45,377 bases of DNA, from positions 264,081-309,457 of the forward strand of contig JAUSGT010000002.1 of assembly GCA_030648835.1 (NCBI GenBank), read 5' to 3'. The notes beneath the pieces are model-generated. The model was given only the letters and a program-made list of their open reading frames with translations. It was not told where the DNA came from and did no database searches. The DNA is from Candidatus Moraniibacteriota bacterium. Its GTDB lineage: Bacteria > Patescibacteriota > Minisyncoccia > Moranbacterales > UBA1568. Within the stretch, counting starts at the first letter, position 1, and each line of letters starts with the position of its first letter. Position numbers and translations under genes: made by a program. Shown piece by piece: positions 17,429 to 27,016 of this stretch.

Positions 17429-17480
17429 GCCATCTTAGCTTCCGCCCAAGGCGGACCAGCCTTGGGCTGGCAGTTGGTAA
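17429..17480 (+). pseudogene. Truncated tRNA-Thr copy split by a palindrome
   Basis: GCCATCTTAGCT (17429-17440) and CAGTTGGTA (17471-17479) together repeat the first 21 nt of the intact tRNA-Thr located 100 bp downstream. Exactly 30 bp of palindromic sequence lies between them. The copy stops after the D-loop, so it cannot make a tRNA. Confidence 0.8.
17441..17470. repeat. 30-bp palindromic repeat, copy 1
   Basis: Left half TCCGCCCAAGGCGGA is identical to the left half of the copy inside rpsK (26561-26590). The right half CCAGCCTTGGGCTGG differs at a few positions. It sits inside the D-arm of the tRNA-Thr fragment. Confidence 0.85.
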
Positions 17481-17491
17481 GGAGGGAGGGC

Positions 17492-17520
17492 TTGGCTATT
17501 AAAAACAAAAGAAGTAAAGT
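17492..17520 (+). promoter_or_regulatory. Promoter of tRNA-Thr(UGU)
   Basis: TTGGCT, 17 nt, TAAAGT, ending 8 nt before the mature tRNA 5' end. Confidence 0.65.
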
Positions 17521-17528
17521 GGGGGAAA

Positions 17529-17601
17529 GCCATCTTAGCTCAGTTGGTAGAGCAACGGTTTTGTAAACCGTGGGTCGTCGGTTCGAGTCCGACAGATGGC
17601 T
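17529..17601 (+). tRNA. tRNA-Thr (anticodon UGU)
   Basis: A complete cloverleaf: acceptor GCCATCT/AGATGGC, D-arm GCTCAGTTGGTAGAGC, anticodon stem ACGGT/ACCGT with loop TTTGTAA (anticodon TGT), T-loop GTTCGAGTC, discriminator T. CCA is not encoded. It has its own promoter. Confidence 0.96.
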
Positions 17602-17606
17602 CAAGT

Positions 17607-17661: not shown

Positions 17662-18270
17662 ATGCCACGTAAAAAAATCACTTCTGGAGAAGAGCGTCTC
17701 GTAAGAGATCTTTATTTGAAAGACTTTACTGGACAGGAAGTTGCTACACAACTCAAGGTTTCTCTGAAACAAGTATACGATTCGTTACGTCGCCAAAATA
17801 TCCCTCGGAAAAGTCTACTTGAGCAAAACAGGTTACGGTTTCAAAAAAAGCCTCTCTCTTTTGTGTTTAGTGAAAAATTGTCATCAAAAGATAGAGAGTT
17901 GCTTGTAGCTGGGCTTATGCTCTATTATGGTGATGGGGCAAAGACAGGGAATACTGTTGACTTTGCCAACTCCGATCCAATGCTTCTTAAATTATTTCTC
18001 AAGTTTCTGAAAAATATTTGCGGTATTGATAATGAGAAGCTGCGGTTTTATCTATACTGCTTCTCTGATCAAAATAGTAATTCACTTATTCGTTATTGGT
18101 GCTCTCATTTGAGCGTTAAGCCGGGGCAATTCACAAAGCCCTATGTCCGCTTGACTCTCAATAAGGGTAAACGAACAATGACAAACGGAGTATTACATAT
18201 TCGTTATAGTGATAAGCGTTTGCTTGAAAAGATATTATTGCTCGGTCGTGAGTGGGCGAGTACTTTGTAA
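17662..18270 (+). CDS. Free-standing LAGLIDADG-type homing endonuclease with N-terminal HTH
   Basis: A 202-residue protein. Residues 1-50 resemble a homeodomain-like helix-turn-helix (GEERLVRDLYLKDFTGQEVA followed by TQLKVSLKQVYDSLRRQ). From about residue 80, RELLVAGLMLYYGDGAK fits the LAGLIDADG helix pattern (GL...GDG, with the acidic residue kept), followed by the alternating basic strands expected of that fold (VRLTLNKGKRTM, VLHIRYSD). Only one such motif is seen, so it would act as a homodimer. The stop codon lies 4 nt before the intron-containing tRNA-Tyr, so it is likely the mobility factor of that intron, encoded outside it. It could also be a domesticated regulator. Confidence 0.7.
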   Translation: MPRKKITSGEERLVRDLYLKDFTGQEVATQLKVSLKQVYDSLRRQNIPRKSLLEQNRLRFQKKPLSFVFSEKLSSKDRELLVAGLMLYYGDGAKTGNTVDFANSDPMLLKLFLKFLKNICGIDNEKLRFYLYCFSDQNSNSLIRYWCSHLSVKPGQFTKPYVRLTLNKGKRTMTNGVLHIRYSDKRLLEKILLLGREWASTL

Positions 18271-18274
18271 ATAT

Positions 18275-18558
18275 GGGTAGGTGGCGGAGTGGTCAATCGC
18301 AGCAGACTGTAAGATATTGCAGCTCTGAAAGGGGACTTTCAGATGAACTTTCTGGGATAACGGTGGAGGCTACGTTCTTATAAAAAAAGAATATGCGAAT
18401 ACCGTGGGAACCTCGATATCGTGTCGGGGAGCGCCGTAGAGACTAGATACCAGAGCACCTAGAACAGGTGAAGATATAGTCCATGCCGAAGAGAAATCCT
18501 CGGGTTATATGAAATCTGTCGCCTTCGGGCTTCGGGGGTTCGAATCCCTCCCTACCCA
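18275..18558 (+). tRNA. tRNA-Tyr (anticodon GUA) with intron
   Basis: Exons 18275-18310 and 18512-18558 join into an 83-nt type II tRNA: acceptor GGGTAGG/CCTACCC, anticodon stem with loop CTGTAAA (anticodon GTA), a long variable arm GCCTTCGGGC, T-loop GTTCGAATC, discriminator A. The intron interrupts the anticodon between its second and third bases, so no functional tRNA forms without splicing. Transcribed with the upstream endonuclease gene. Confidence 0.9.
18311..18511 (+). ncRNA. Group I intron in tRNA-Tyr
   Basis: A 201-nt intron. The 5' exon ends CTGT, which pairs with GCAG at 18319-18322, giving the required U-G wobble at the 5' splice site. The intron ends in G (18511). The core motif AAGATATAGTCC (18471-18482) is the group I S element; its TAGTC pairs with GACTA at 18441-18445 to form P7. 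No reading frame lies inside the intron. It resembles the small self-splicing tRNA introns of cyanobacteria and proteobacteria. Confidence 0.9.
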
Positions 18559-18600: not shown

Positions 18601-18632
18601 TTGGTAGAGTAAGGATAGGGATTCGAAGGGTA

Positions 18633-18664
18633 TTCTAAAAAGCAAACTGCTTTGCTTTTTAGAA
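18633..18664. repeat. Perfect 14-bp hairpin
   Basis: TTCTAAAAAGCAAA and TTTGCTTTTTAGAA are perfectly complementary with a 4-nt loop. It lies in the 180-bp gene-free gap between tRNA-Tyr and tRNA-Glu, next to the repeated tRNA-Tyr 3' end. Confidence 0.7.
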
Positions 18665-18716
18665 ACCCAGGCTCTGGAGGAGTCGCGGAGCCTCCGGCGA
18701 AGCGATGGGGGAGGAG

Positions 18717-18734
18717 GAATCCCTCCCTACCCAC
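18717..18734 (+). repeat. Repeated 3' end of tRNA-Tyr
   Basis: GAATCCCTCCCTACCCAC is identical over 18 nt to 18542-18559 (T-loop to acceptor end of tRNA-Tyr). Such duplicated tRNA 3' ends are the usual footprint of site-specific integration, or of an insertion that duplicated its target. Confidence 0.8.
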
Positions 18735-18739
18735 ATAAT

Positions 18740-26533: not shown

Positions 26534-27016
26534 ATGGAAGAAGAAGAAGTAAAGAAAACTTCCGCCCAAGGCGGATCCGCCTTGGGCGGAGAAGGAGAAA
26601 ATGCTACTACTGCCAAAGTAGGGGCGAACGATGCTGCTCTGGTAAAGAAAGCCAAAAAATCAAAACGTCAGGTTTTGAAAGGCCGGGCGAATATTCAGTG
26701 TACGTATAACAATACGATTATTACCCTGACCGATTTGAACGGAGCGGTTCTTGGGTGGTCAAGTTCCGGGCATTTGAGTTTCAAGGGTGCCAAGAAATCC
26801 ACTCCCTATGCCGCTACGCAGGTGGTCGCCGATGTTTCCGAAAAAGTGAAGAAGTACGGTCTCCAAGAATTGGAAGTATTTGTAAAAGGTGTCGGCTCGG
26901 GTCGCGAAGCTTCGATTCGCGCCCTGTCCAACAATGGTTTCAATCTGACCAGTATCAAAGATATTACTCCGATTCCACACAATGGTTGTCGTCCCCGTCG
27001 CCCCCGTCGTATCTAA
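26534..27016 (+). CDS. rpsK: Ribosomal protein uS11 with N-terminal insertion
   Basis: A 160-residue uS11; the core from about residue 43 is normal (GRANIQCTYNNTIITLTDLN, VKGVGSGREASIRAL, DITPIPHNGCRPRRPRR). The extra N-terminal 40 residues are acidic and low in complexity and include SAQGGSALGG, which is encoded by a 30-bp perfect palindrome (26561-26590) also found near tRNA-Thr. The insertion keeps the frame. uS11 lies on the 30S platform; its N-terminus is usually flexible, which would tolerate this. Confidence 0.96.
   Translation: MEEEEVKKTSAQGGSALGGEGENATTAKVGANDAALVKKAKKSKRQVLKGRANIQCTYNNTIITLTDLNGAVLGWSSSGHLSFKGAKKSTPYAATQVVADVSEKVKKYGLQELEVFVKGVGSGREASIRALSNNGFNLTSIKDITPIPHNGCRPRRPRRI
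26561..26590. repeat. 30-bp palindromic repeat, copy 2 (inside rpsK)
   Basis: TCCGCCCAAGGCGGA followed at once by its exact reverse complement. It is the perfect version of the repeat at 17441-17470. The length of 30 is a multiple of three, so it adds ten codons. Confidence 0.9.

Follow-up and report, generated by a model that had tools for sequence, protein, structure and literature searches.

Hairpin-split tRNA gene copies in Moranbacterales and their association with small GIY-YIG nuclease genes

A split tRNA-Thr copy upstream of an intact gene

The window analyzed here is a 45,377-bp stretch of a Candidatus Moraniibacteriota genome (1.01 Mb, 4 contigs), and it carries a tRNA-Thr(TGT) gene preceded by a broken copy of its own 5' end, arranged as follows:

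17429-17440, + strand: dead copy, left part, tRNA-Thr(TGT) nt 1-12, GCCATCTTAGCT; identical to 17529-17540
17441-17470, + strand: 30-bp double-hairpin element, TCCGCCCAAGGCGGACCAGCCTTGGGCTGG; two hairpins with 6-bp stems
17471-17479, + strand: dead copy, right part, tRNA-Thr nt 13-21, CAGTTGGTA; identical to 17541-17549
17480-17528, + strand: 49-bp spacer without an ORF, from reading of the sequence
17529-17602, + strand: intact tRNA-Thr(TGT), from ARAGORN and Rfam

A preliminary description of this DNA had proposed that nt 1-21 of tRNA-Thr are duplicated 100 bp upstream of the intact gene and that a 30-bp palindrome splits the copy exactly at nt 12|13. The coordinates bear this out, and excising the 30 bp yields a 21/21 match to tRNA-Thr with zero bases lost or duplicated, and hence no target duplication, as had also been claimed. 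The insert consists of two 15-nt hairpins (6-bp stems, 3-nt loops), with one long hairpin as an alternative fold; by sequence and folding it has the two adjacent short hairpins that define a double-hairpin element. A group I intron was considered for the Thr copy and rejected, as the insert is merely 30 bp and there is no Rfam intron match at that place. An assembly artefact was likewise rejected: many assemblies made independently show the same arrangement, and their hairpins differ.

The neighboring DNA has other features of note. Between tRNA-Thr and tRNA-Tyr(GTA) lies a 202-aa ORF (17662-18270) that has a LAGLIDADG-type look by eye (LVAGLMLYYGDG) and no Pfam match at 0.01; a related ORF is seemingly at the same place in genome G003, and not in G001 or G005. 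The tRNA-Tyr gene itself (18276-18558) is interrupted in its anticodon arm by a sequence resembling a group I intron (Rfam RF00028, 32.7 bits, E 5e-6, under the gathering score), and is uninterrupted in several sister species. A second class of insert is found downstream of many tRNAs, at 18601-18735 in the window and at L139, L142, L143, L148, L154, and L163, and the tRNAs concerned are Tyr, Gly, Lys (twice), Arg (three times), and Pro. These inserts are structured and roughly 100-150 bp long; they mostly begin with a reverse-complement T-arm (GGGAATCGAA), and their end directly repeats the final 13-19 nt of the tRNA.

The double hairpin is a dispersed element

Matches to the 15-mer pattern (up to 2 mismatches) number 8 in the window, compared with 1.4 expected, and no shuffle reached 8. 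A genome-wide search, suggested in the preliminary description, found 8 double hairpins of this shape, not only two. Three of the 8 lie within tRNA 5' fragments (Thr, Lys, and Ser), every one at 12|13, and others are inside ORFs, for example a GlmS-like gene. Besides the Thr copy, the following are of note:

26561-26590 of the window, + strand: second double hairpin, reading SAQGGSALGG in frame, close to the start of an S11-like ORF
C1:319116: Lys(CTT) 5' fragment split at 12|13
C1:136593: Ser(CGA) 5' fragment split at 12|13

The ORF at 26561-26590 resembles ribosomal protein S11 both in sequence and in its place between S13-like and S4-like ORFs. Across the order, 90 distinct copies of one sub-type were read and 46 of 128 genomes have a match, with 0-10 pattern matches per genome among genus mates. 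Of 42 element copies lying in stretches of 900 nt or more without a stop, 32 are in phase 0, and the insertion sites outside tRNAs have a common motif, TT|(C/G)A. Comparisons of PolA and GlmS place the insert inside the ORF and go no further than that, and no coding empty site turned up when the genus of G075 was searched. For the broken tRNA copies, the joined flanks reconstitute intact tRNA sequence, and in about 20 of them the adjoining intact gene supplies the empty site. With many copies at unrelated sites and presence or absence between close relatives, the double hairpin is probably a mobile element, its movement being read from these patterns, and the earlier proposal of a repeated short palindromic element that inserts precisely and without target duplication gains support from the 8 copies here and the 90 of the sub-type in the order. 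Matches from a GTDB scan in Streptomyces, Nitrospirillum, and others were discarded as chance occurrences in GC-rich coding DNA, lacking tRNA context.

One way to move such an element would be transposition of the REP/RAYT or IS200 type, in which the hairpin goes where a Y1 transposase cuts. Insertion without target duplication is as expected for this, and there is one Y1 domain in the genome. However, genomes G005, G007, and G010 have 8, 6, and 9 pattern matches and no Y1 match, G006, G008, and G009 have 0, 1, and 0 pattern matches even though Y1 is present, and the element ends lack the GTAG or CGTC tag of REP/BIME sequences. Because Y1 presence does not track the palindrome, we consider this mechanism very improbable.

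Empty and alternative alleles

The orthologous tRNA-Thr locus in G001 and G003 has neither the fragment nor the hairpin, and these are the empty alleles that the preliminary description had called for. The locus in G005 has the same palindrome type as the window genome, and G007 has the orthologous fragment and spacer with a different, 38-nt hairpin at nt 12 and two bases lost. Since another hairpin splits the G007 copy at nt 12, it is the place that recurs and not the sequence of the window's palindrome; the orthologous dead copies of G005 and G007 thus display hairpin turnover at one position.

The flanking DNA carries possible traces of a duplication. The spacer at 17480-17528 resembles the tRNA-Thr promoter region of the sister genome G001 (about 30 of 41 positions alike, by eye). 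In G005, it is the 40 bp preceding the fragment that resemble the G001 tRNA promoter, so that there the fragment sits at the old tRNA start, whereas in the window genome the promoter-like DNA is the spacer. Both layouts fit a tandem duplication of the promoter and tRNA 5' end, after which one promoter decayed. Such a duplication would have occurred once or twice among this genome and G005-G007, both counts being compatible with the weak tree of the proteins encoded at the tRNA-Thr locus. An intact, fresh tandem duplication of promoter and tRNA 5' end is present at L042, with a hairpin in the first copy alone.

The bases of the fragment are unchanged in G005 and G007 despite a diverged spacer, and every insert disrupts a tRNA arm. 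Both observations are in keeping with selection rather than targeting, in which truncated upstream copies would compete for tRNA folding or processing, and arm-breaking hairpins would be retained for disabling the competitor. However, a copy would be disabled more readily by point mutations or deletions, whereas the majority of dead copies are, the hairpin aside, perfect matches to the gene, and we regard this explanation as improbable.

Split copies recur at many tRNA genes

The association with tRNA sequences was measured in two ways. In a flank test (threshold 12 across the junction, flanks compared with the tRNA of the same locus), 23 of 90 elements in the order have tRNA-like flanks, the figure for positions drawn at random from those loci being 5 of 1364. 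A separate detector, whose sole requirement is a gapped copy of a tRNA, reports 22 split copies next to 153 tRNAs, compared with none in shuffled sequence; one split copy (L110) is doubtful, and the inserts of the other 21 fold as one or two hairpins, these counts not being independent of the palindrome, for which many of the split loci were fetched. Loci fetched for other reasons show the same, namely L060 (from a tRNA-Thr survey), L166 (from a tRNA scan of its own genome), and L184, L187, L192, and L208 (from a GIY-YIG search). The layout is seen at tRNA-Lys and tRNA-Ser in this genome, and at Thr, Lys, Ser, Arg, Pro, Asn, and Leu tRNAs elsewhere. The preliminary description had read the Thr feature as a lone insertion into a chance tRNA fragment, and this does not hold: fragment and split recur together at several tRNAs and at the same tRNA position, and the dead copy is part of a larger layout of broken copy, spacer or GIY-YIG gene, and intact tRNA.

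Two related observations are worth recording. At L030 (7145-7500) and L111 there are tandem copies of tRNA-Thr and tRNA-Ser, one of which is intact and the others near full-length and hairpin-split. The same arrangement also occurs in MAG contigs labeled Elusimicrobia (L028) and Omnitrophota (L047), reflecting either transfer or mis-binning.

A partial tRNA copy adjoining an intact tRNA is the typical attachment scar of an integrase-borne element, and the fragments share this general appearance. Here, though, the copies are of the 5' rather than the 3' end, lie about 60-440 bp from the gene, and have a hairpin inside; the intervals read contain no integrase, the window's spacer having no ORF of any kind; and many isotypes are affected within one genome. 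An integrase scar is therefore scarcely credible.

GIY-YIG genes beside broken copies

At two loci in this genome, tRNA-Ser(CGA) and tRNA-Leu(CAA), a GIY-YIG ORF lies between the broken copy and the intact tRNA downstream. Pfam PF01541 matches the ORFs at Ser, Asn, and Tyr loci with E values of 1e-16 to 1e-17, and the proteins encoded by these genes are about 81-90 aa. Free-standing GIY-YIG genes are thus a feature of the class of loci and not of the window itself, where the tRNA-Thr arrangement has no nuclease gene; as the window copy is ORF-less, its link to a nuclease is indirect. A comparable pair is provided by tRNA-Ser(CGA), where the orthologous G005 locus is a split copy without an ORF, like the window's Thr locus, and the orthologue in this genome has the nuclease gene.

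Of 41 small GIY-YIG matches in the genus, 14 are followed on the same strand by an intact tRNA, 228-322 bp downstream from where the match starts; we estimate a chance expectation of about 0.1. The broken copies beside these genes have their hairpins in the D-arm, anticodon arm, or T-loop; at L190 there is no broken copy upstream of the nuclease gene. Phylum-wide, just 2 of the best 30 GIY-YIG matches have the downstream-tRNA layout, so the tRNA-linked genes are a subset of the family and most GIY-YIG genes are not of this kind.

The nuclease tree groups tRNA isotypes, requiring 9 changes compared with a shuffled mean of 15.5, and 0 of 200 shuffles were as low. The nucleases of L168 (Ser) and L048 (Tyr) are sisters (support 98/99), and both loci have hairpins at the T-loop, at TTCG|AATC; in Ser elements with a different nuclease, the hairpin is at 12|13. 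In the clearest case, then, which is one good cross-isotype pair, hairpin position appears to track nuclease type rather than tRNA type. We also note that the GIY-YIG ORF at tRNA-Ser GGA of G004 (L087/L185) looks mosaic, its first half resembling the 12|13 Ser clade and its second the T-loop clade.

The strongest alternative explanation is that the hairpin merely favors tRNA sequence and survives in dead copies alone. The duplications would be ordinary replication errors, insertions would persist only in dead copies because hitting a single intact gene is lethal, and the GIY-YIG genes would be coincidental. This accommodates the hairpins found within ORFs and in intergenic AT-rich sequence, the case of L034, where a redundant tRNA-Lys is hit and no nuclease is present, and the commonness of ORF-less loci like that of the window. 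It is at odds with the D-arm sites CT|CA and TC|GG, which depart from the non-tRNA motif, with the use of the same tRNA position by unrelated hairpin sequences, and with the narrow range of distances between nuclease gene and tRNA at 14 loci, which is far beyond chance; we think it unlikely.

A possible role for homing endonucleases

The arrangement of GIY-YIG genes and tRNAs suggests a selfish nuclease that drives tRNA-gene duplication, and we give about an even chance to the split fragment being a dead copy from duplications of the kind made by free-standing GIY-YIG homing endonucleases. In such a scheme, the nuclease would cut the tRNA gene at a site that it determines, in the D-arm at 12|13 for one Ser clade and in the T-loop for another nuclease clade. 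Repair would leave the interrupted copy in tandem with an intact tRNA downstream, and the nuclease gene might or might not lie between the two. The mobile double hairpin would take the cut site of the dead copy, either through capture during break repair or by being retained because it blocks further cutting. Cleavage, the order and timing of events, the entry of the hairpin, and its protective effect are what we infer from sequence comparison, and we take the Thr feature of the window to be an ORF-less relic of a GIY-YIG homing element. The main objection is that the presumed cut site is still there in the working tRNA, which nevertheless goes uncut.

A doubtful variant is that the selfish unit comprises the GIY-YIG nuclease and its own working tRNA, with the host's native tRNA gene broken at a fixed site, that copy sealed and disabled by a hairpin, and the cell left dependent on the imported tRNA. 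The dead tRNA-Gln copy of G009 starts TGGGGAG, as does this genome's tRNA-Gln, and the working tRNA past the nuclease gene starts TGGGCTG. In the same genome, the working tRNA-Ser differs from the dead copy at 6 of 71 sites and from the tRNA-Ser of another genus at 3, and the Leu and Cys working copies are likewise unlike their dead neighbors. If working tRNAs do come with the nuclease, this would be a selfish gene that holds an essential RNA gene hostage.

Comparison with known systems

Accounts of palindromic elements usually treat them as clutter in the genome, moved by unknown agents. Inside broken tRNA copies their position is repeatable here and, in the best case, follows the type of the neighboring nuclease, so that a connection of homing endonucleases with the duplication of tRNA genes and the insertion of hairpins in Patescibacteria becomes directly testable. 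The literature searched describes neither tRNA copies split by hairpins nor GIY-YIG genes linked to tRNAs in Patescibacteria, which, its coverage being partial, is weak evidence of novelty. Taken singly, there are precedents for double hairpins as elements, for palindromes kept in frame, and for free-standing GIY-YIG nucleases that cut tRNA genes; none of the papers searched describes them together, with the hairpin at a repeatable place in dead copies of tRNAs. Rickettsia palindromic elements are palindromic inserts maintained in frame inside proteins; unlike these, the elements here are 30 bp (ten residues) and are also in tRNA copies, and the likeness does not come from sequence comparison.

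Double-hairpin or repetitive hairpin-forming elements of fungal and sponge mitochondria (PMC2800124) are similarly short tandem hairpins with many copies in genes and intergenic DNA, and no flanking duplication is reported for those of Allomyces (PMC2800124). They differ in organism, the likeness is one of shape and not sequence, and those described here have a repeatable site in broken tRNA copies. Insertions in CPR rRNA genes (PMC11270868) are in the same phylum and include GIY-YIG genes in non-intron insertions as well as short ORF-less insertions, located at the top or base of rRNA stem-loops; these are in rRNA and not tRNA, and the text of that paper has no mention of tRNA, hairpins, or palindromes.

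A close parallel is SegB of phages T4 and T6 (PMC13096335, PMC2988022), a free-standing GIY-YIG gene adjoining tRNA genes. T6 SegB cuts inside tRNA genes and has the motif RAWTSGAAC, the complement of which is T-loop-like, and its nuclease activity is needed for tandem tRNA-Tyr amplification (PMC13096335). SegB also drives tandem duplication of tRNA and nuclease, whereas cleavage in the present case is a prediction. Unlike SegB, the genes described here are chromosomal in Patescibacteria, encode proteins of about 81-90 aa, and are associated with many tRNA isotypes and with hairpin-split dead copies.
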